Source: Rhodoferax bucti
Lineage (GTDB): Bacteria; Pseudomonadota; Gammaproteobacteria; Burkholderiales; Burkholderiaceae_C
Assembly (NCBI RefSeq): GCF_005876985.1
Contig: NZ_VAHD01000001.1
Coordinates: forward strand, 744,001 to 808,000
Reading direction: 5' to 3'
DNA length: 64,000 nt
Shown one piece after another: positions 28,187 to 59,334 of this stretch; position 1 is the first letter of the stretch; every line of letters begins with the position of its first letter. Both the position numbers and the translations under genes were made by a program. The notes below the pieces were generated by a model. The model ran no database searches and was not told the origin of the DNA. It worked only from the letters and a program-made list of their open reading frames with translations.

Positions 28187-28963
28187 TCAAGCCTTGAGGG
28201 CTTCTATCAATAATTTTTCTTGTCCATCATCGCTCAAACGGATTTGCGCCGTCTTGCCATGAACATCCTTGGGGAATGGATTTTCACTGGTCCGGTATAC
28301 CCCGGCGATGGACACCAATTCAGGTTCCAATGACAAAGCAAAAATACGGGCTTTGACATTGCCACGTGCTCCTGCCATCGCCTTACCGCGCAAGGCAGCA
28401 TAAACATGGATATTGCCATCGGCCACGACTTCGGCACCTTGGTTGACCATGGCCAACACCACGAGGTCACAGCCTTTGGCGTAGACCTTCTGGCCTGATC
28501 GCAAAGGCTTGTCGATGACCATGGTTCCAGGACCGGGAACTTCACGAATCACTTCCTGAATCACGGGTTCTGCAGAGACCTGGGCAATGGGCGCCGACTT
28601 GCTCCGCTGAATTTCTGCCTCTGCTTTAACCAGGCCCGCTGCCAATGCAGCTTCAGTCCAAGCGCTGCTTGCATGGCGGAATGCCACAGGAATCAACTGA
28701 CATGCCTTCAACACGGACAACAGAGGTGCCAGATCTTGGGCAAGCTCTTCTGCTGGCATCAAGGAAAAGTCCAAGACTACGGCATCGCGTTCAAAAAAAT
28801 CAGGGCTTTCTCCATCAGGACCAAAAGCAGCGTGGAGTTCTTCCGTGAGTTTTGAAAAATCGGGCGACTTCACCAGCAAAGCAACCATGGGCAGTTGTGC
28901 ACTTTTGATTTCAAACGTACTTCGCGTTTGAGGGGATGGGTGCACGGCAGAGGAAGCGGGCAT
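28187..28963 (-). CDS. minC: Septum site-determining protein MinC
   Basis: A 258-residue inhibitor of FtsZ assembly. The N-terminal domain (STFEIKSAQLPMVALLVKSP) and the C-terminal beta-helix (VIDKPLRSGQKVYAKGCDLV, GNIHVYAALRGKAMAGARG) are clear, with a linker containing EPVIQEVIREVPGPGT. It heads minCDE on the minus strand. ATG 28963 is taken; 28999 is an alternative. The promoter must lie in the DnaA-box-rich region immediately upstream. Confidence 0.95.
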   Translation of the reverse strand: MPASSAVHPSPQTRSTFEIKSAQLPMVALLVKSPDFSKLTEELHAAFGPDGESPDFFERDAVVLDFSLMPAEELAQDLAPLLSVLKACQLIPVAFRHASSAWTEAALAAGLVKAEAEIQRSKSAPIAQVSAEPVIQEVIREVPGPGTMVIDKPLRSGQKVYAKGCDLVVLAMVNQGAEVVADGNIHVYAALRGKAMAGARGNVKARIFALSLEPELVSIAGVYRTSENPFPKDVHGKTAQIRLSDDGQEKLLIEALKA

Positions 28964-29040
28964 GAAGCGATGGATCAGCGGTTCAACAGAAGGTGGCAAA
29001 TCTTACTTGATACCAGGCTGCATTTTCTGTTTTTGCTTCC

Positions 29041-29340
29041 CTGAATTGCAGATGTGCACAAGATTTTTTCAAAATTTCCATGTATGCGAAAAATGGGGAA
29101 AAAGTTTTCCTTGCTATTGTCTTATTTCTTTAAATTCAAGATAGTAGTAGTAGATAAGGATTGCCTTCCTCTGTGGATAAGCAAAAAAAATTGTTTTAAA
29201 TCATAAAGTTACAGTTCTTCTACTCTTGTGTGTGACTGCGCTTTCATTTTGTACCGCGAACAGGGATAAGTCTTCATTTTCAACTTCATCTGTGGATAAG
29301 TTGGAGTTGTGCTTGAATTTATGCACAGAGTTATGCTCAG
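29041..29340. other. Candidate replication origin: DnaA boxes, DnaA-trio run and AT-rich DNA
   Basis: The gene-free stretch between minC and the diguanylate cyclase gene (28964-29456) holds two perfect DnaA boxes TGTGGATAA (29172-29180 and 29291-29299) and the accepted variant TTATGCACA (29319-29327). One-mismatch forms lie at 29331-29339 (TTATGCTCA) and 29053-29061 (TGTGCACAA). Four TAG triplets and a TAA (29142-29157) run toward the box at 29172, with AT-rich DNA on their far side (29101-29141). This is the order of the bacterial basal unwinding system: box, spacer, DnaA-trios, AT-rich DNA. The 14-base spacer is longer than usual. The dnaA gene is not in the window, so a DnaA-controlled min promoter is the main alternative. 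Confidence 0.55.
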
Positions 29341-29456
29341 ACTACGTGACGCGATGCTTTTGCTCCTCTGCTCCCGGACTTTGCGTTATTGCCATGAAAT
29401 AAGCCGACAATGTTCTTTGGCTGAAAACAGGGTGCGTTCCAGAAAGAGAAGCAAGC

Positions 29457-31010
29457 ATGGTTGAGAAACGTTCATTTGAGATTGCCCGTGAAACCTTGAA
29501 GCAATTGACGGCGAGAAAGCTGGTCCCTACGCCAGCGAATTACCAGTCGGTGTACAACGAGATTGCGGGCATTCCTTCTATTCAGCCGTTTCCTGCTGAC
29601 TTCTTGCGGGATTTGGCGCAGTCCCTGCCGCTCAAAACCCCTGGACAACAGAAACAAAAAGGTTTGTTGGACTACGCAATCGATCGCTTGAGCTGGGACG
29701 GCGTGAAATCTGCCTTGGTGGGATATGGCGCGTTCGCGCCTGTAGTGGCACCAGAAGAGAGTGTTGTCAGTCATGCAGCTGCGCCAGTGCCCGAAGCATC
29801 GGTAGTCCAGGCATCTGCATTGACGAACGAGTTTTTTGCCCAAATTGCGCGTTTGATTGAATACGCCCAGCCAGCACTCGGCAACGATGATGCGCGTTTT
29901 GTCGATCAGACCCATCAGTTGGTACAAGCTTTGCGCAAGCCGGATGCAGATGCCTTGACGGTGAAGACCATGCTGGTGAATTACAGCCATCGCTTGTCGT
30001 TTGCAGCGGAAGATCAGGCTGAAATCCGCAACGGCCTGCTCAAGCTACTGCATCTGGTGTTCACCAACATCAGTGAACTGAGCTTGGATGAGCAGTGGCT
30101 CAAAGGACAGATGGACGCGCTGATGAGTGTTTCCACACCACCTCTGAGTCTGCGCCGGCTGGATGAGCTGGAGCGTTTGCTGAGCGATGTGATCTTCAAA
30201 CAAAAGGACGCGAAATACAAAGCATTGGAAGCGCAAGACGAAATGCGCCGCATGCTGGCCATGTTTATTGAGCGGCTTGCACAGATGAATCAGTCCACTG
30301 GTACGTTTCAAAGCAAGCTGGAAGAAAGTGCCCGGTTGATTGAGCAAGCCAAAAGTCTGGCGGATATTGCTCCGGTGCTCAAAGAGGTCGTGGGTACAAC
30401 ACGGAATATGGCGCAAGAGAGCCAGCTGTCCCGCGAACAGTTGGGTGCCATGCAAGAGCGTGCAAAGCAGACAGAAGCGGAGCTCGCCAAGCTGCACAAG
30501 GAGCTGGATCGCGTGAGTTTGCAGGCACGCCATGATGCATTGACTGGTGCCTTGAACCGCAAAGGCCTGGATGAAGCCTTGAACCGCGAGGTGTCCACCG
30601 TGCGGCGCAATGCCAGTGTGTTGAGTGTGGCCTTGCTGGACATCGACAATTTCAAAAAACTCAATGACACGCTAGGGCACGCCACCGGAGACATTGCTTT
30701 GGCCCATCTGGCCACCGTGGCCAAAGAGTGCATGCGCCCGCAAGACACCTTGGCACGCTATGGTGGTGAGGAATTTGTGATTCTCTTGCCAGATACCCCC
30801 TTGGACAAAGGCATTGAAGCCATGACCCGTTTACAGCGAGAGCTGACCAAACGCTTTTTCCTTTCGGGGACTGAGAAAGTATTGATTACCTTCAGTGCGG
30901 GCGTGGCACAGGTCACGGATGAAGAACAACCGGGAGATGCCATTCGCCGTGCGGATCAGGCCATGTACCTGGCCAAGCGGGCGGGGAAAAACAGGGTACT
31001 GGGGGCTTGA
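29457..31010 (+). CDS. Diguanylate cyclase (GGDEF domain) with a novel-looking N-terminal region
   Basis: A 517-residue protein. The last 165 residues are a GGDEF domain that should make cyclic di-GMP: HDALTGALNRKGLDEALNRE begins it, and the active site is RYGGEEF. The inhibitory-site motif RPQD lies five residues before GGEEF, so product feedback is likely. The N-terminal 330 residues are soluble and mostly helical, with a coiled-coil-like stretch (QLGAMQERAKQTEAELAKLH) before the cyclase. I do not recognise a sensor family there. No signal peptide or membrane segment is seen. AGAGAAG precedes the ATG. Confidence 0.9.
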   Translation: MVEKRSFEIARETLKQLTARKLVPTPANYQSVYNEIAGIPSIQPFPADFLRDLAQSLPLKTPGQQKQKGLLDYAIDRLSWDGVKSALVGYGAFAPVVAPEESVVSHAAAPVPEASVVQASALTNEFFAQIARLIEYAQPALGNDDARFVDQTHQLVQALRKPDADALTVKTMLVNYSHRLSFAAEDQAEIRNGLLKLLHLVFTNISELSLDEQWLKGQMDALMSVSTPPLSLRRLDELERLLSDVIFKQKDAKYKALEAQDEMRRMLAMFIERLAQMNQSTGTFQSKLEESARLIEQAKSLADIAPVLKEVVGTTRNMAQESQLSREQLGAMQERAKQTEAELAKLHKELDRVSLQARHDALTGALNRKGLDEALNREVSTVRRNASVLSVALLDIDNFKKLNDTLGHATGDIALAHLATVAKECMRPQDTLARYGGEEFVILLPDTPLDKGIEAMTRLQRELTKRFFLSGTEKVLITFSAGVAQVTDEEQPGDAIRRADQAMYLAKRAGKNRVLGA

Positions 31011-43503: not shown

Positions 43504-43530
43504 GGACCGATTGTGCCGCCTTCGTGCTTG

Positions 43531-43605
43531 TGCGCCATACGGCTTGGCGCAATAATGGCGCAATTCATAATGAATGCGCCAGTAAATATGCCAATGAATG
43601 CGCCA
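43531..43605. promoter_or_regulatory. Array of five TGGCGCA heptamers around the Fic gene start
   Basis: TGGCGCA occurs at 43545-43551 and 43556-43562, and its complement TGCGCCA at 43531-43537, 43575-43581 and 43599-43605. Copies two to four form an extended inverted repeat around ATTCAT. The array spans the divergent promoter region and the first codons of the winged-helix Fic gene, as expected for an autoregulatory operator. Confidence 0.55.
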
Positions 43606-45012
43606 ACTCCTATCTTTGCTGCTGCCGATGTGGTTCGGCTAGTGACCCAAAGCGCCACCGGTTTAGGTATGGACGCCTTGTGCGCGGCCTTTCCTTCTGT
43701 ACCTAGGCGCACTTTGCAGCGACACATGGCCGCTCTAGTGCGGGAGCAAAAGCTGGTGCTCAGCGGCAAGGGCCGCGGCGCGCGGTATGTGGTGCCCACT
43801 GAAAAAGCAGTGACAACGCCTCACGTTTACGTGCCGTTTTCGGTGCAAGAGCCGGGCGCTGATTACCCCACCGAGGCGTATGTGCCCACGTCACCCGAGG
43901 GCGAAGCCATCAAGGCCTATGTGCGTCAGCCACGCCACCTGCGCAAACCTGTGGGCTACCAGCAGGCGTTTTTGGAGGCCTATGTTCCCAATGTCACTGC
44001 CTACCTGCCACCCGAGTTGCGCGCCCAATTGCATGCGCTGGGCCAGTCGCCCGCCGCACACACCCCAGCCGGTACGTTTGCGCGTGACATCCTGAACCGC
44101 CTGTTGATTGATTTGTCGTGGGCCTCGTCGCGCCTGGAGGGCAATACTTACAGCCGCTTGGACACCGAGCGCCTGATTGCCCAAGGCCAGGTCGCCGAGG
44201 GCAAGGATGCGGTAGAGACCCAGATGATCTTGAATCACAAAGAGGCCATCGAGTACCTGGTGCACAACCCCGAGCGCGCCCGCCTGACGCCCGACACCGT
44301 GATTGCGCTGCATGCTTTTTTGTCCGATGGACTGATGGCGGACCCGATGGCGGAGGGCCGCTTGCGGCAGCGAGCGGTTGGCATTGGGGGGAGCGTGTAT
44401 TTGCCTCTGGCCTCGCCGCAAGGTGTGCAAGACATTTTCGGCTTCGTGCTGGAAATGGCCACCGAGATTGAAGACCCTTTCGAGCAAGCCTTCTTTTTGA
44501 TGGTGCACCTGCCGTATTTGCAGCCGTTTGAGGATGTGAACAAACGCGTCTCGCGGTTGGCGGCGAATATCCCGTTCATCCGCCACAACCTGTGTCCGTT
44601 GTCCTTCATCGACGTGCCCCAACAAGCCTATGTGGACGCCATGCTGGGCGTGTACGAACTCAACCAGGTGGAGCTGTTGCGGGACGTGTTTGTGTGGGCG
44701 TATGGGCGCTCCTGCCAGCAGTATGTGTCCGTCCAGCAAAACATTGGGCAGCCGGATATGTTCCGTTTGCGCTACCGGCGCCCATTGGGCGAGGTGGTCG
44801 CGCAGATGGTGCGCGCCATGGAGCCTGCGGCCGAGGTGTTTGTGCAAAAGCGCGTGCCAGTGGAGGTAGCACAAGCAGATCGGGCGGGTTTTATTGCGCT
44901 GGTGCTGGCCGAACTGAAGGCGCTACACGCCGGTAAGGCGGTGCGCTTTGGGCTGAGGCTGTTGGAGGTGGAGGGGTGGCTGACTTTGCACTATGACGCT
45001 AGTGCTCGATAA
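43555..45012 (+). CDS. Fic-fold protein with N-terminal winged helix and degenerate active site
   Basis: About 485 residues. An N-terminal winged helix (DVVRLVTQSATGLGMDALCA, AAFPSVPRRTLQRHMAALVR) is followed by a linker and a Fic domain. The inhibitory-type motif SSRLEGN is present before the core. The catalytic loop reads QPFEDVNKRVSR instead of HPFxDGNGRxxR: the catalytic His is Gln and both glycines of the phosphate loop are replaced. Classical AMP transfer is thus unlikely; this is a known-looking but uncharacterised Fic subgroup. The start could be ATG 43555, 43570 or 43594, or GTG 43513. The surrounding TGGCGCA array suggests DNA binding and autoregulation. Confidence 0.85.
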   Translation: MAQFIMNAPVNMPMNAPTPIFAAADVVRLVTQSATGLGMDALCAAFPSVPRRTLQRHMAALVREQKLVLSGKGRGARYVVPTEKAVTTPHVYVPFSVQEPGADYPTEAYVPTSPEGEAIKAYVRQPRHLRKPVGYQQAFLEAYVPNVTAYLPPELRAQLHALGQSPAAHTPAGTFARDILNRLLIDLSWASSRLEGNTYSRLDTERLIAQGQVAEGKDAVETQMILNHKEAIEYLVHNPERARLTPDTVIALHAFLSDGLMADPMAEGRLRQRAVGIGGSVYLPLASPQGVQDIFGFVLEMATEIEDPFEQAFFLMVHLPYLQPFEDVNKRVSRLAANIPFIRHNLCPLSFIDVPQQAYVDAMLGVYELNQVELLRDVFVWAYGRSCQQYVSVQQNIGQPDMFRLRYRRPLGEVVAQMVRAMEPAAEVFVQKRVPVEVAQADRAGFIALVLAELKALHAGKAVRFGLRLLEVEGWLTLHYDASAR

Positions 45013-45061: not shown

Positions 45062-45991
45062 ATGACGGTGCCAACTTATGACAAATTTATAGAGCCTTTA
45101 CTGAGGTACCTGGCCCTGAACCCGGAGGGTGTCACCGCGAAATTAGCCCATGACCAAGCAGCATTCGCTTTGGGTCTAAGTGATGAAGAGCGGCAAGAAA
45201 TGTTGCCGAGCGGTGCCCAGCTTATTTATAAAAATCGCGCGGCTTGGGCGCATGACCGGCTTAAGCGGGCAGGACTTTCAGCAAGTCCCAAAAGAGGTGT
45301 TTGGAAAATTACAGCAGAGGGCTTGAAGTTTGTTGAGCAACATCCTGAGCCATTTGCCCCTCAGTTGGCGGAAGAGCTTGCGATGGGTTTTATTGCTGTT
45401 AAGTTAAAACAGAGCACGGTCAACATGTCGCTTGGAGTGGCAAATACAACGCCGCCAGTTGTGACGCCAGTGATTGCAAGCCCTGACGATAGGTTAGAGC
45501 ATGCAATTGAGGAGTTGCGGCAATCGGCGGAAGCAGAGCTTTTAGAGTCGTTAGCGGGTGTTTCACCATCCTATTTTGAGACGATTGTTTTGGACTTGCT
45601 GCACCGAATGGGATACGGTGCCAGTCGGTCTGACTTACAGCGAGTTGGCGGTTCGGGTGATGGTGGTATCGACGGGGTTATCTCTCTGGATCGGCTGGGT
45701 TTGGAAAAGGTCTATGTTCAAGCGAAGCGTTGGCAGAGCAATGTTGGGCGACCAGAATTGCAGGCGTTTTTTGGTGCACTAGCAGGACAAAAAGCGAAAA
45801 AGGGTGTTTTCATCACGACATCTGCATATACCGCCCAAGCCGAGCAGTTCGCGAAGTCTGTAGAAGGCATTGTGCTGATTGACGGCATTAGATTGGCGAG
45901 CTTGCTGATTGAGTGTGAGCTTGGTGTTACTTCCAGAACGGTAAAGATTCCTAAATTGGATATCGACTATTTCGACGAAGACACTGCTTGA
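45062..45991 (+). CDS. mrr: Mrr-type restriction endonuclease (type IV)
   Basis: A 309-residue protein with an N-terminal winged-helix domain (Mrr_N: RYLALNPEGVTAKLAHDQAA, LIYKNRAAWAHDRLKRAGL) and a C-terminal PD-(D/E)XK nuclease. The active site is GGSGDGGIDGVI followed by VYVQAKRW (Asp and QxK), preceded by FETIVLDLLHRMGYG. Mrr enzymes cut DNA carrying methylated bases. Base composition is lower in GC than the flanks. It lies between the Fic gene and copA, and its TGA stop forms part of the copA -35 box. Confidence 0.93.
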   Translation: MTVPTYDKFIEPLLRYLALNPEGVTAKLAHDQAAFALGLSDEERQEMLPSGAQLIYKNRAAWAHDRLKRAGLSASPKRGVWKITAEGLKFVEQHPEPFAPQLAEELAMGFIAVKLKQSTVNMSLGVANTTPPVVTPVIASPDDRLEHAIEELRQSAEAELLESLAGVSPSYFETIVLDLLHRMGYGASRSDLQRVGGSGDGGIDGVISLDRLGLEKVYVQAKRWQSNVGRPELQAFFGALAGQKAKKGVFITTSAYTAQAEQFAKSVEGIVLIDGIRLASLLIECELGVTSRTVKIPKLDIDYFDEDTA

Positions 45992-46024: not shown

Positions 46025-48382
46025 ATGACCGCTGAAAACCTCACTGAAAACACCACCTCGATCAACACCACCAGCACCATCGATATCGGCATTGGCGGCA
46101 TGACCTGCGCATCGTGTGTGATGCGTGTGGAAAAAGCTCTCAAGAAGGTGCCCGGCGTGGACAGCGCCACGGTGAACCTGGCCACTGAGTCTGCCCGCAT
46201 CGCGGTGCACGACGCTGGCATGGAAGCCCGTTTACGCCGCGCGGTGCGGGACGCGGGCTACGAACCCTTGGCGCCTAGCGCGGCGATTGATGCAGTGGAT
46301 GCCTCGCCATGGGCGGGTTTCGGGCCGGTGGGCATGGGCTTGGCGCTCTGTGCGCCTCTGGTACTGCCCATGGTCGGTGACCTTTTTGGCAAAGACTGGA
46401 TGCTGCCTGCGCTGTGGCAGTTTTTGCTGGCCACGCCGGTGCAGTTCATCCTGGGTGCGCGTTTTTACAAAGCTGGTTGGCACGCGCTGCTGGCGCGCAC
46501 CGGCAATATGGATTTGCTCGTGGCGCTGGGCACCACCGCGGGATGGGCTTTGTCCATGTGGTTGTGGCTGACTGCCTCTGACCACAGCGCGCATGGCATG
46601 CCTGCCATGGAGCCACACCTCTACTTTGAGGGCAGCGCCGTGGTGGTGACGCTGGTGCTGTTGGGCAAGTGGCTGGAGGCCCGCGCCAAGCGGCAGACGA
46701 CGGCTGCCATTCGCGCCCTGCACAGCCTGCGGCCGGACACGGCGCACCTGATGGGCCGCGATGGCGAAGTGGATGTGCCCGTGGCCGAGGTATTGGTGGG
46801 CGACAAAATTGTGGTCAAACCCGGCGAGCGCTTTCCCGTAGACGGCACGCTGCTGGAGGGCCGCACGCAGGTGGACGAATCCATGCTGACCGGCGAACCG
46901 CTGCCCGTGACCAAAGACGTGGGCGCCAAGCTCACGGGCGGCAGCATCAATGGCGAAGGCCGCGTGGTGCTGCAGGTGCGCGCGGTGGGGGTGGACACGG
47001 TGCTCTCCAGCATCATCCGCCTGGTGGAAGACGCGCAGGCCGCCAAAGCGCCCATCCAGCGGCTGGTGGACCAGGTGAGCGCGGTGTTTGTGCCGGTGGT
47101 GCTGGTGATTGCGCTGGTCACGCTGCTGGGCTGGTATTTCACCGGCCACAGCTTTGAGGTGGCGCTGATCCATGCGGTGGCGGTGCTGGTGATTGCCTGC
47201 CCCTGCGCGCTGGGTTTGGCCACGCCGGCTGCCATCATGGCGGGCACCGGGGTAGCGGCCAAGTTTGGCATCCTGATCAAAGACGCGCAGGCGCTGGAGG
47301 TGGCGCACACCGTCAATGTGGTGGCCTTCGATAAAACCGGCACCCTCACCGTAGGCCAACCCCGCCTGACCGCTTTGGTGCCCGTGGGCCAGACCGATGA
47401 CGAAGCACTGGCCTTGGCTGCTGGGTTGCAAAGCGGTAGCGAGCACCCGCTGGCCCGCGCCGTGTTGCAGGCGGCCAAAGACAAAGCACTCACCGTAACC
47501 GCACCCACCGATGTGCAAGCAGTGGCCGGCCGGGGCACCCAAGGCAAAGTGGGGGGGCAGACCTTGTTGCTGGGCAGCTTGCGCTGGATGGCGGAGCTGG
47601 GCGTAGACATGGCGCCAGTCGCGGCGCAGGCGGCGGATTTGCAGATGAGCGGCGCCACGGTGTCGGCCATGGCAGAGCAACAAGCCGGTGGCTTAAAACT
47701 GCTGGCCCTGCTCGCATTTGCCGACGAGCCCAAGCTCGGCGCCAAGGAAGCGTTGGCCACCCTGAAGGCGCGTGGCATCCAGACCGTGATGATCTCCGGC
47801 GACAACCGTGGCGCGGCGCAAGCCATGGCCAAGCGCCTGGGTCTGGATGCCAAAGATGTGCTGGCCGAGGTGTTGCCTGCCGACAAGGCCGCGAAGGTGT
47901 TGGAGCTGAAGGCAGGTCGAGGCGTTTTGCCGCCGGGCCGCCCCAAGGCAAAACAGCCCCACGGCCATGCAAAACCATGGTCCCTTCCCCGGTTTGGGGC
48001 AGCGGCGGAGCGTGGGGGCGTCGCATTCGTGGGCGACGGCGTGAACGATGCGCCTGCGCTGGCGGCGGCCGATGTGGGCATGGCCATGGCCAACCCCAAC
48101 GGCGGCGGCACTGATGTGGCCATGCATGCCGCCGGCATCACCCTCATGCGGGGCGACCCGCTGCTGGTGGCGGCTGCGTTGGACATCAGCCGTCGCACGG
48201 TGTCCAAGATCCGGCAAAACCTGTTCTGGGCCTTTGCCTACAACGCGGCCGGCATTCCGCTGGCGGCGCTGGGTTACCTGAGCCCGGTGGTGGCCGGTGC
48301 GGCCATGGCACTGAGTTCGGTGAGCGTGATGACCAACGCCCTGTTGCTCAAGCGCTGGACGCCAGAGCAGGGTGGCAAGTAA
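46025..48382 (+). CDS. copA: Cu(I)-exporting P1B-type ATPase CopA, with a repeat-like in-frame insertion
   Basis: A 785-residue P-type ATPase. One N-terminal HMA domain (GMTCASC), then the usual eight-helix layout with the copper site [11 protein letters not shown] in helix 6. The actuator loop contains LTGEPLPV, the phosphorylation site is DKTGTLT, and the hinge is [20 protein letters not shown]. It pumps Cu(I) from cytosol to periplasm. Between LELKA and [10 protein letters not shown] about 35 residues ([20 protein letters not shown] and onward) interrupt the P-domain where other CopA proteins have two or three. The DNA there is GC-rich and hairpin-forming. Transcription is probably CueR-controlled and leaderless. 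Confidence 0.95.
47915..48019 (+). repeat. GC-rich hairpin-forming insertion inside copA
   Basis: 105 bp (35 codons, frame kept). It contains GTTTTGCC (47924-47931) paired with GGCAAAAC (47947-47954), and CCCC-GGTTT-GGGG (47987-47999), then a tract ending GGAGCGTGGGGGC. It resembles GC-rich intergenic hairpin repeats that I associate with comamonads rather than P-ATPase coding sequence. Confidence 0.6.
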
Positions 48383-56293: not shown

Positions 56294-58339
56294 ATGTTGT
56301 ACCCACAAGAATTCGACGTCATCGTTGTCGGCGGCGGCCATGCCGGAACCGAAGCTGCACTCGCAGCCGCCCGCATGGGCTGCAAGACCCTGCTGCTCTC
56401 CCACAACATCGAGACCCTGGGGCAGATGAGCTGCAACCCCTCCATCGGCGGCATCGGCAAGGGCCACCTGGTCAAAGAGGTGGATGCCATGGGCGGTGCG
56501 ATGGCGCTGGCCACGGACGAGGCCGGCATCCAGTTCCGTATTCTCAACAGTAGCAAAGGCCCAGCTGTGCGGGCCACCCGTGCGCAGGCCGATCGCGTGC
56601 TCTACAAAGCCGCCATCCGCCGCATGCTGGAAAACCAGCCCAACCTCTCGCTGTTCCAGCAAGCCGTCGATGACCTGATGGTCGAAGGCGACCGGGTGGT
56701 GGGTGCGGTCACGCAGGTAGGCATCCGCTTCAGGGGCAAGGCGGTGGTGCTGACGGCCGGTACCTTCCTCGACGGCAAGATCCACGTGGGCCTGAACAAC
56801 TATGCCGCCGGCCGGGCAGGCGACCCGCCCGCCGTGTCGCTGTCTGCCCGACTCAAAGAACTGAAGCTGCCCCAAGGGCGCTTGAAGACGGGCACTCCGC
56901 CGCGCATTGATGGCCGCAGCATCGACTTCAGCAAATGCATCATCCAGCCCGGTGACGGCGTGCCCGGTGGCATGAGCGATGTGATGCCGGTGGTGAGCTT
57001 CATGGGCAATGTGGCCATGCACCCGCAGCAAGTGCCGTGCTGGATTACCCACACCAACGAGCGTACGCACGACATCATCCGCAGCGGGTTCGATCGCAGC
57101 CCCATGTTCACCGGCAAGATCGAGGGCGTGGGCCCGCGCTACTGCCCGAGCGTGGAAGACAAGATCAACCGCTTTGCCGACAAGGACAGCCACCAGATCT
57201 TTTTGGAGCCCGAAGGCCTGACTACCCACGAGTACTACCCCAACGGCATCAGCACCAGCTTGCCCTTCGATATTCAGTACGAGTTGGTGCGCAGCATGGC
57301 TGGCTTGGAGAATGCGCACATCCTGCGCCCCGGTTACGCCATCGAATACGACTACTTTGACCCGCGCAGCCTGAAGGGTAGTTTTGAGACACGCCAGATT
57401 GGCGGACTGTTCTTTGCCGGCCAGATCAACGGCACCACCGGCTATGAAGAGGCGGCGGCGCAAGGGATGTTTGCCGGCATCAATGCCGCACTGCAAGTGC
57501 GAGCCATGGGCGGTGGCGATGTGTCATTGAGTGCGGCGGGTGGCGCCAGCTACACGGGCGACACCTGGTTGCCCGGTCGCGACCAAGCTTACCTGGGCGT
57601 GCTGGTGGATGACCTGATTACCAAGGGTGTGACGGAGCCTTACCGCATGTTCACCAGCCGGGCTGAGTTCCGCTTGCAGCTGCGTGAAGACAATGCCGAT
57701 GCCCGCTTGACCGAAGTGGGGCGCGAACTGGGCTTGGTGGACAACGCGCGATGGGATGCCTTCTGCCGCAAGCGCGATGCTGTTTCACGTGAAACAGAAC
57801 GTCTGCGCAGCATCTGGGTGAACCCGCGCAACCTGGCCGCCGACGAATCCGAGCGGGTGCTGGGCAAGTCCATCGAGCATGAGTACAACCTCGCGGACCT
57901 GCTGCGGCGCCCCAATGTGAGCTACGGCGGGTTGATGTCGCTGGATCATGGCAAGTACGCCAACCGTGATTTGCTGGATGTTGTTTCACGTGAAACAGCT
58001 GGCCTGCCAACCGTGGATGCAGCAGAGGTGGCCTTTGTGGCTGCGGTGGTGGAGCAGGTGGAAATCGCTGCCAAGTATTCCGGCTACATCAACCGTCAGA
58101 AGGACGAAGTGGAGCGCGCCGCCCATTACGAAAACCTGCGCTTGCCGGATGACCTCGACTACATGCAAGTCACGGCCCTGAGCATCGAAGCCCGCCAGCG
58201 CCTGAGTAAGTACAAGCCCGAAACCTTGGGGCAGGCATCGCGCTTGTCCGGCATCACGCCCGCCACGATTTCGCTGTTGATGATCCATCTGAAGAAGGGC
58301 AACTTCCGCGGCTTCGCCGAAAAGGCCGAGGCTGTATGA
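56294..58339 (+). CDS. mnmG: tRNA uridine-5-carboxymethylaminomethyl modification enzyme MnmG (GidA)
   Basis: A 681-residue FAD protein that, with MnmE, adds the carboxymethylaminomethyl group to U34 of certain tRNAs. Signatures: [40 protein letters not shown], the Cys-containing [20 protein letters not shown] and [19 protein letters not shown]. Two perfect parS sites lie within the gene and both are translated as VSRET (57781-57796 and 57982-57997). ATG 56294 starts the conserved sequence. rsmG overlaps its stop by four bases. Proximity to parA/parB is usual near chromosome origins. Confidence 0.97.
57781..57796. promoter_or_regulatory. parS: parS site 1 (perfect)
   Basis: TGTTTCACGTGAAACA is the universal ParB-binding palindrome (TGTTNCACGTGAAACA). 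It lies inside mnmG. Confidence 0.96.
57982..57997. promoter_or_regulatory. parS: parS site 2 (perfect)
   Basis: A second exact TGTTTCACGTGAAACA, 201 bp after the first and also inside mnmG. Confidence 0.96.
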
Positions 58340-59010
58340 GCGCCAGCCATTTGAAGCAACTGGGCAAAGCGGCCACCTCATTGGGTTTGAATCTGGACGC
58401 GGCCCAGCAAGCCGCCTTGCTGGAGTACCTCGCCCTGATACAGAAATGGACCAAGGTCTACAACCTGACGGCGGTGCGCAATCCGGATGAGATGCTCACG
58501 CACCACCTGCTCGACAGCTTGGCGGTGATCGCACCATTGCAAAAGCAGCTTGCCGCTTTGAAAGAGCAGGGCGTTGTTGGTGACAAGCCGCGCTTGCTGG
58601 ATGTGGGTTCGGGTGCTGGCCTGCCCGGTATCGTCATTGCTATTTGCTGCCCGCACATCACGGTGCACTGTGTCGATACGGTAGCCAAGAAGGCTGCATT
58701 CATCCAGCAGGTGGCCGTGACTTTGAAGCTGCCTAACCTGCGTGGCATCCATGCGCGGGTGGAAAGCTTGACCGAGCCCTACGACGTGGTGAGCTCGCGT
58801 GCCTTTGCTTCTTTGGTGGACTTCACCACTTGGTCCGAAAAAGCCTTGGCAGGGCAGGGTGTGTGGATGGGAATGAAGGGCAAGCATCCTGCGGACGAGA
58901 TGGCTGCGTTGCCTGTGTCCGTGGAGGTGTTTCACGTGGAACAGCTTTCGGTGCCTGGGTTGGATGCGGAGCGGTGCATTGTGTGGATGCGGAAGAGGGT
59001 GGTGGTTTAA
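58336..59010 (+). CDS. rsmG: 16S rRNA (guanine-527-N7)-methyltransferase RsmG (GidB)
   Basis: A 224-residue SAM-dependent methyltransferase for G527 of 16S r[43 protein letters not shown] (motif I) and [20 protein letters not shown] are typical. It starts within the mnmG stop (ATGA). Near its end it contains a third, imperfect parS site. Confidence 0.96.
58928..58943. promoter_or_regulatory. parS: parS-like site 3
   Basis: TGTTTCACGTGGAACA, one base from the parS consensus, inside rsmG. Confidence 0.85.
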
Positions 59011-59036
59011 GCCCTTGTTTTCCGGGTTGGTGTGAG

Positions 59037-59128
59037 GGTTGGGTGGGGTTGCGCGTTTTGCTCCGTGTCCTCCGCCCGCTTTGCGGGCTCCTCCTTGACC
59101 TGCGCAAAACGCACAACCCCACCCAACC
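59037..59128 (-). repeat. Structured element, copy A (25-bp variable arms around a conserved core)
   Basis: Arms 59037-59061 and 59104-59128 are complementary over 25 bp with one mismatch. They enclose a roughly 40-base core that, on the minus strand, reads AGGTCAAGGAGGAG, a small hairpin GCCCGC-AAA-GCGGGC, and GGAGGACACGGA. The arms differ completely from those of copy B. Confidence 0.8.
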
Positions 59129-59183
59129 TGCCAATGTAATGAGCGTTCTTAAAGTCGTAAATACAGGCGCGTTCTTCGCAGCG

Positions 59184-59273
59184 GCGTGGCAGGGGTGCAC
59201 CCCAAAGTGAGGTCAAGGAGGAGCCTGCGTAGCAGGCGGGGGACACGAACGGCGGGGTGTGCCCCTGCCACGC
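59184..59273 (+). repeat. Structured element, copy B (20-bp variable arms around the same core)
   Basis: Arms 59184-59203 and 59254-59273 are complementary over 20 bp with two mismatches. The core (AGGTCAAGGAGGAG, hairpin GCCTGC-GTA-GCAGGC, GGGGGACACGAA) matches copy A, including a compensated base pair in the small hairpin. It is in the opposite orientation to copy A. Confidence 0.8.
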
Positions 59274-59318
59274 AGCGAGTCCAGCACCAAGGCTGCGAGC
59301 AAAGGGGTGTTCAAGCAG

Positions 59319-59334
59319 AGTTTCACGTGAAACA
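59319..59334. promoter_or_regulatory. parS: parS site 4 (one mismatch)
   Basis: AGTTTCACGTGAAACA differs from parS only in the first base. It is intergenic, 100 bp before the LysE gene. Confidence 0.88.

Follow-up and report, generated by a model that had tools for sequence, protein, structure and literature searches.

Where does the chromosome of Rhodoferax bucti start its replication? The question is raised by a cluster of DnaA boxes that is situated between minC and a GGDEF gene, at a considerable distance from dnaA. The cluster lies in the 64-kb stretch of DNA that was analysed (hereafter the window, G000:C1:744001-808000), part of a genome of 3.67 Mb in 8 contigs; positions are those of the window unless a contig is named. 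Considering the sites at this locus, their conservation and order, and the similarity both to a module in the dnaA-dnaN gap of relatives and to the oriC of E. coli, we predict with a probability of about 0.93 that the chromosomal origin of replication (oriC) lies at 29122-29337. In addition, the prediction rests on the GC skew, which switches at the module in most of the widely displaced relatives tested.

Layout of the module and its surroundings

The left neighbour of the module is minC (28187-28999, minus strand; TIGR01222, 177.6 bits), and the series minC-minD-minE, of which MinD and MinE were also matched, runs away from the module on the minus strand. The right neighbour is a diguanylate cyclase-type GGDEF gene (29457-31010, plus strand; TIGR00254, 150.4 bits). 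The wider gene context is as the first-pass annotation had described it, with infA and minCDE to the left on the minus strand, and mnmG, rsmG, a ParA-type ATPase gene and parB to the right on the plus strand. The four parS sites that it had placed within 30 kb were found as well: they are located at 57781, 57982, 58928 and 59319 (57781-59334, plus strand; 0.00 expected) and form a cluster at 57.8-59.3 kb within the mnmG-rsmG-parA-parB region, 28-30 kb to the right of the module. The genes at 43513-45012 and 45062-45991 encode a Fic/DOC-domain protein beside an Mrr-type restriction endonuclease, 14-17 kb from the predicted origin, and are perhaps a defence pair. A gene for a heavy-metal (copper-type) P-type ATPase is found at 46025-48382; in several genera its homologues are no more than a few kb away from the module.

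The module is matched by the whole of a sequence model, R1 (see below), at 29122-29337 on the plus strand (123.2 bits, E 1.4e-36). Its elements are arranged in the order AT-rich DNA, TAGx4 trios, DnaA box, IHF-type site, weak boxes, a near-invariant box and divergent boxes. The adjacent AT-rich element, recognised by its base composition, is the presumed unwinding element (29062-29141, 72.5% AT); the AT content of 29112-29157 amounts to 76.1% versus 39.5% for the window, in agreement with the earlier remark on AT-rich DNA beyond the trios. The DnaA-trio run (29142-29157, plus strand) reads 3'-GAT-5' from the box and consists of TAGx4 (29142-29153), one A and TAA (29155-29157). It had been annotated as TAGx4 plus TAA; both parts are there, but the single A between them shifts the TAA out of register by one base.

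Box 1 (29172-29180, minus strand, TTATCCACA) lies beside the trios, in the place that box R1 presumably takes in E. coli. The IHF-type site WATCANNNNNTTR (29199-29211, plus strand), which was matched with the familiar IHF consensus, is situated between box 1 and the remaining boxes. Two weak DnaA-like sites occur on the minus strand: TGTGTGTGA at 29227-29235, in the place of E. coli TGTGAATGA, which has three mismatches to TTATCCACA and is therefore rated by conservation only, and CAGGGATAA at 29261-29269, which represents a conserved TGnATAA/TGAACAA element in the alignment of relatives. Box 2 (29291-29299, minus strand) is an exact TTATCCACA and the most conserved of the boxes, box 3 (29319-29327, plus strand, TTATGCACA) has the opposite orientation, and box 4 (29331-29339, plus strand, TTATGCTCA) is weak, with two mismatches. 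An outlying near-box TTGTGCACA (29053-29061, minus strand) also has two mismatches, lies beyond the modelled module and may be a chance occurrence. The perfect boxes 1 and 2, box 3 and both near-boxes had already been reported in the first-pass annotation and are indeed present.

The sequence TTATNCACA occurs three times within 156 bp and nowhere else in the window, the expectation being 0.74 per 64 kb; three occurrences were reached anywhere by 4 of 100 shuffles. Moreover, the module is the only place within the 304 kb of the genome examined that has at least three boxes (0-1 mismatch to TTATCCACA) per 500 bp. Given these box statistics and the conservation in relatives, a chance cluster of boxes is unsupported.

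Conservation of the module and likeness to known origins

We collected the loci of the 80 nearest MinD relatives, mostly Rhodoferax where a genus was named, with Polaromonas next and a few others. MinC was located in all but one of them (79 of 80), and 78 loci were searched for the module, leaving out L104 (no minC) and L102 (upstream DNA too short). The module was found upstream of minC in 61 of these 78 and was missing there in the other 17, many of which belong to Polaromonas or Ramlibacter. The window and 54 of the 61 matching loci were combined into an alignment of 55 rows, A1, from which L054, L061, L081, L088, L101, L105 and L114 were omitted as near-duplicates.

In A1, AT-rich DNA is followed by TAGTAGTAGTAG; beyond a spacer come box 1, then AATCAAnnACTTA, TGTGnGTGA and TGnATAA in turn, next a TGTGGATAA that hardly varies, and finally TTATNCACA in the opposite orientation. 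The trios appear as exact TAGx4 in 33 of the 55 rows, as TAGTCGTAGTAG in 11 and as near variants in 7, with the search pattern unmatched in 4. Box 1 has 0-1 mismatch in 32 rows and box 3 in 40, and box 4 has 0-2 mismatches in 14. Box 2 is the exact TTATCCACA in 50 rows and has 0-1 mismatch in 54. At the site of 29227-29235 the TG is invariant and the following T is found in at least 90% of the rows. An IHF-type site falls on a single alignment column in 41 of the 55 rows versus 2.0 expected from shuffled rows, and the strict form WATCAANNNNTTR is found in 29 rows versus 0.5 expected, the window itself having the looser form. As in an E. coli-type oriC, this predicted site is located between the R1-like box and the right-hand boxes.

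Model R1 is a sequence-only model made from A1, in which no E. coli sequence was included. At E values up to 10 its single match in 304 kb of the genome is the module, and at E <= 0.001 it has one match in the whole R. bucti genome; a second module, as in a bipartite or duplicated origin, was not found at this threshold. R1 matched 280 of the 299 family genomes, representing 134 of 141 genera. The proposal of the first-pass annotation that the site is oriC or a second DnaA-dependent site is supported by this distribution, by the occurrence of the module in the dnaA-dnaN gap elsewhere and by the similarity to E. coli oriC.

In fact, on a 50-kb stretch of E. coli K-12 that comprises dnaA and oriC, R1 had its best match at the annotated oriC (28.9 bits, E 2.8e-8), well ahead of a second match with 10.0 bits. 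The match extends over 45786-45987 of L341 and R1 positions 37-217. The A1 profile scored 18.8 bits against E. coli oriC, a value reached by none of 400 dinucleotide shuffles (maximum 4.4). The module is thus similar to an experimentally defined origin (NC_000913.3 3925744-3925975). In the R1 alignment, box 1 corresponds to the E. coli box at 3925801-3925809, which we take to be R1, the IHF-type site to ATCAA, and the TGTG site to TGTGAATGA, presumably R5M. Both origins have an R1-like box by the unwinding side, a spacer starting with GGATnGC, ATCAA at the IHF position, a weak TGTG site and right-hand boxes, and both lie away from dnaA, at about 42 kb in E. coli and about 50 kb here. They differ in that E. 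coli oriC, which has 13-mer repeats, shows TTATTAG where the module has TAGx4, in that its neighbours are mnmG and mioC, and in length, as the E. coli match is somewhat longer (202 bases for R1 37-217).

The left part of the module also agrees with the basal unwinding system (BUS), in which DnaA bound to boxes next to the trios builds up on single-stranded 3'-GAT-5' repeats, with opening of the DNA (PMC8287927, PMC6669920). The search rules given in PMC8287927 are a DnaA box, a spacer of 0-16 and at least three NAN trios, with a spacer of 13 as the commonest; in the module a box lies within 16 bp of the trios, with a spacer of 14 and the right polarity, as judged against the 3'-GAT-5' consensus. 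The objection raised earlier, that a spacer of 14 is long, therefore falls away under these rules. With the BUS of B. subtilis, as described in the same two sources, the module shares a DnaA box, a spacer of 14, a 3'-GAT-5' trio run and AT-rich DNA; the difference is that a pair of boxes (6/7) stands beside the trios in B. subtilis and one strong box here.

It has been noted in PMC9584773 that dnaA is not always beside the origin, with distances drawn from DoriC, and PMC6595937 predicted an Acidovorax origin with OriFinder. Gao 2015 (PMC4403523) listed four putative double-origin chromosomes in DoriC, one of them of Ralstonia pickettii, and noted that evidence for two working origins was absent. 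That a chromosome may have several oriC-like clusters is common to that work and to the relatives described below, but the clusters in PMC4403523 lie at dnaA plus hemE, parB or a second dnaA, whereas many of the relatives here bear at least two copies of one homologous module and the genome of the window has one. None of the matches listed in a literature search describes, in the portions of text that these offered, a displaced origin for this family; DoriC may list such sites, and for this reason the location is not claimed as unpublished.

The predicted origin is of a known kind, with an E. coli-like build, and is displaced from dnaA. DnaA would bind box 1 and the right-hand boxes, and IHF, by analogy with its role in E. 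coli, would bend the DNA between them and bring the right-hand oligomer to box 1. DnaA-ATP would spread from box 1 onto the single strand of the TAG trios and open the AT-rich DNA leftward, whereupon the helicase would be loaded and forks would depart in both directions.

The dnaA locus, the GC skew and other readings of the module

The absence of dnaA and dnaN from the window, noticed earlier, is explained by their location outside it, at about C1:721988-724605. The dnaA gene itself (C1:721988-723400, family confirmed) is on the same contig, about 50 kb to the left of the module, with dnaN and then gyrB downstream of it. Just upstream of dnaA a pair of DnaA boxes is found (G000:C1:721914-721972), one perfect (TTATCCACA) and one with one mismatch (CTATCCACA), about 50 bp apart; it is a pair only, versus a cluster of three boxes at the module. 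The same pair occurs upstream of dnaA in at least 10 of 29 loci of relatives, a lower bound because minus-strand loci were not reoriented, and it likely serves autoregulation. R1 has no match near dnaA at E values up to 10 in the 304 kb. The dnaA-dnaN gap measures 50 bp, or about 98 bp if the start of dnaN, judging from the beginning of the protein, was placed 48 bp too early, which would lengthen all gaps obtained with the same query. With a pair of boxes only, a short gap and no R1 match, a dnaA-adjacent origin was rejected for this genome. Elsewhere in the genome, two matches to the DnaA domain, with the same score of 29.5 bits, lie on one contig, at G000:C5:107447 and C5:183123, and are possibly copies of one mobile element.

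The cumulative GC skew over 304 kb falls unevenly to a flat zone at 748-776 kb and then rises. Its minimum (C1:753417) lies inside the flat zone, 20 kb to the left of the module (C1:773 kb), and dnaA (722 kb) sits on the falling part. In a change-point fit on third-position skew, with gene strand as a covariate, the optimum was at 745-755 kb; compared with this best fit, a change at the module was worse by 4.2 units, which places it narrowly outside the approximate 95% set, and one at dnaA by 17.1 units. The skew of the genome itself thus rejects dnaA as the switch point, and the module is not the optimum. Ten extra contig samples of 20 kb were negative in 5 of 6 cases on the left arm and positive in 4 of 4 on the right arm. 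The cumulative-skew check suggested in the first-pass annotation, carried out on the 304 kb and these ten samples, accordingly turned against dnaA but left the minimum 20 kb off the module. A skew minimum together with a stronger box and trio cluster at dnaA had been named there as the pattern that would speak against the proposal; the locus has the pair only, and the skew is falling through dnaA.

An indirect test came from relatives with a more distant dnaA. If the module is the origin, the DNA between it and dnaA should have negative (left-arm) skew, and if dnaA is the origin, right-arm skew. Six genomes in which 138-459 kb separate dnaA from the module were compared: 26 of the 31 intervening stretches were negative, all 15 stretches beyond the module were positive, and only 9 of 14 beyond (left of) dnaA were negative. 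The switch lies at the module rather than at dnaA clearly in G118 (459 kb), G132, G086 and G139 and mostly in G323, where 2 of 5 intervening stretches are slightly positive; G075 is ambiguous. The genome G007 does not decide: its skew minimum, at 626.7 kb, falls between the module (598.4 kb) and dnaA (652.6 kb) and is marginally closer to dnaA. Local skew, taken over about 5-15 kb per side, changes from negative to positive across the modules of G348, G353, G250, G234 and G063; over the same range a sign change was absent at both copies of G222, at G132 and at one copy of G331, and the sign was reversed at the dnaA-side copy of G331 and the minC copy of G181. At individual copies the noise is too high to tell the working copy.

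These results bear on the possibility that the working origin lies just upstream of dnaA, the cluster being an additional DnaA-dependent site that is minor or dormant. Such an arrangement would accord with the box pair at dnaA and its recurrence in relatives, with the modules that G181 has both upstream of dnaA and at minC, and with a skew minimum that lies away from the module in the own genome. However, a module match near dnaA is absent in this genome, the skew is still falling through the gene, and the relatives with dnaA 138-459 kb off switch their skew at the module, four clearly and one mostly; we regard the arrangement as very improbable.

It is just as improbable that the module is a DnaA-titrating or DnaA-reactivating locus of the datA/DARS type and not an origin. 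Clustered DnaA boxes are paired with an IHF site in those loci too, but they have no unwinding element, and the module does not fit the class, since trios and an AT-rich element are present and conserved. Moreover, homologous modules are the sole match, in the dnaA-dnaN gap, in other genomes, and oriC is the best match in the 50-kb stretch of E. coli, which excluded datA and DARS. The position of the boxes between two divergent genes could point to a DnaA-regulated promoter region that serves minC and the GGDEF gene alone, but in other genera the module has rdgC, mnmG or dnaN nearby and so does not travel with these two genes; we give this reading almost no weight.

Relocation and multiplication of the module in the family

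With 29122-29337 taken as the predicted oriC, its place in the family was followed in 40 complete or near-complete genomes (that of the window included), picked for few contigs and not at random. The module was matched in 38 of them: in 12 it lies within about 250 bp of dnaA, and in 26 it is only found displaced, at 16-459 kb (for G313, G181 and G133 the distances assume circular contigs). Of the dnaA-adjacent modules, 11 are at the 3' end of dnaA towards dnaN and that of G181 is upstream; the direction relative to dnaA is identical in all 11 gap genomes. In G219 there is one copy each way. The dnaA-dnaN gap is 169-763 bp in 10 of the 11 dnaA-adjacent genomes in which it was measured, the eleventh being G181 with 10 bp, and at most 133 bp in 22 of the 24 displaced genomes measured, the exceptions with long gaps being G323 and G188; all these values are perhaps 48 bp too short alike. 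On reading the neighbourhoods, displaced modules were found near minC, rdgC, mnmG or genes unrecognised by the markers. If the module is the origin, dnaA is head-on to replication in 22 of the 26 displaced genomes.

Where other genera, in the family or elsewhere in the order, have their origin in the dnaA-dnaN gap, the module is the same by R1, though weaker outside the family; the present one differs in its distance of about 50 kb from dnaA and in the short gap. Indeed, 47 of 150 genomes sampled from the order (four of the family) matched R1, mostly weakly, and G039, G053, G049 and G057 have weaker matches right after dnaA in the same orientation. G109 and G303, which lack an R1 match, have a diverged box cluster in the gap with weak profile matches (E 4e-4 and 1e-3). 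The gap is probably the ancestral place of the module, from which it would have moved later, leaving dnaA-dnaN-gyrB of the present genome transcribed towards the origin, head-on to replication. On a tree of the 40 DnaA proteins, 5 changes of the dnaA-adjacent label are required, of which well supported branches force at least 3, with the bootstrap not fully settled, the context class 'other' partly reflecting missing marker genes, and G109 and G303 assigned to no group. The module thus left or re-entered the gap at least three times on this tree. In the two-contig genome G078, a partial match on the second contig (G078:C2:247854-247961, 27.2 bits) could be the origin of a secondary replicon.

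Two or more R1 matches (E <= 0.001), not all of them checked for length, are present in 90 of the 299 family genomes, and 16 of the 40 chosen genomes carry at least two nearly full-length modules. Extra copies are either in tandem, at 425-612 bp, or 3-46 kb apart. Nearly full-length pairs are G222:C1:48954 and 95363, G331:C1:2357454 and 2386119, and G181:C1:14539 and 4936250, and G064 has three nearly full-length modules in one chromosome. In Rhodoferax relatives too, additional boxes or duplicate module matches lie close to the first one, at 838 (L086), 748-776 (L092) and 938 bases (L119) upstream of the minC start and at C84:42504 and 42953 in G015. Within genomes, 15 pairs from 13 genomes are 52-77% identical, and between genomes the median is 54% and the maximum 70%. 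The compared copies have thus diverged nearly like the modules of different species, so most would be old, retained pairs. It is possible, if rather doubtful, that the oriC of this family is a relocating and multiplying module and that some relatives are natural chromosomes with more than one working origin.

A single displaced origin is modest news; the unexpected part is the family-wide relocation, together with the multiple modules in relatives. Many records of the group are numbered from dnaA (in 17 of 40 genomes the dnaA match starts no more than 700 bases into contig 1), and with the module 16-459 kb from dnaA in 26 of 38 genomes, coverage-based growth-rate estimates as well as replichore or strand-bias analyses that assume an origin at dnaA would be off. 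The head-on orientation of dnaA in most displaced genomes is a testable oddity. The group offers natural experiments on the positional needs of the origin, and whether bacteria ever use two origins becomes testable in those relatives that have two or three homologous modules.
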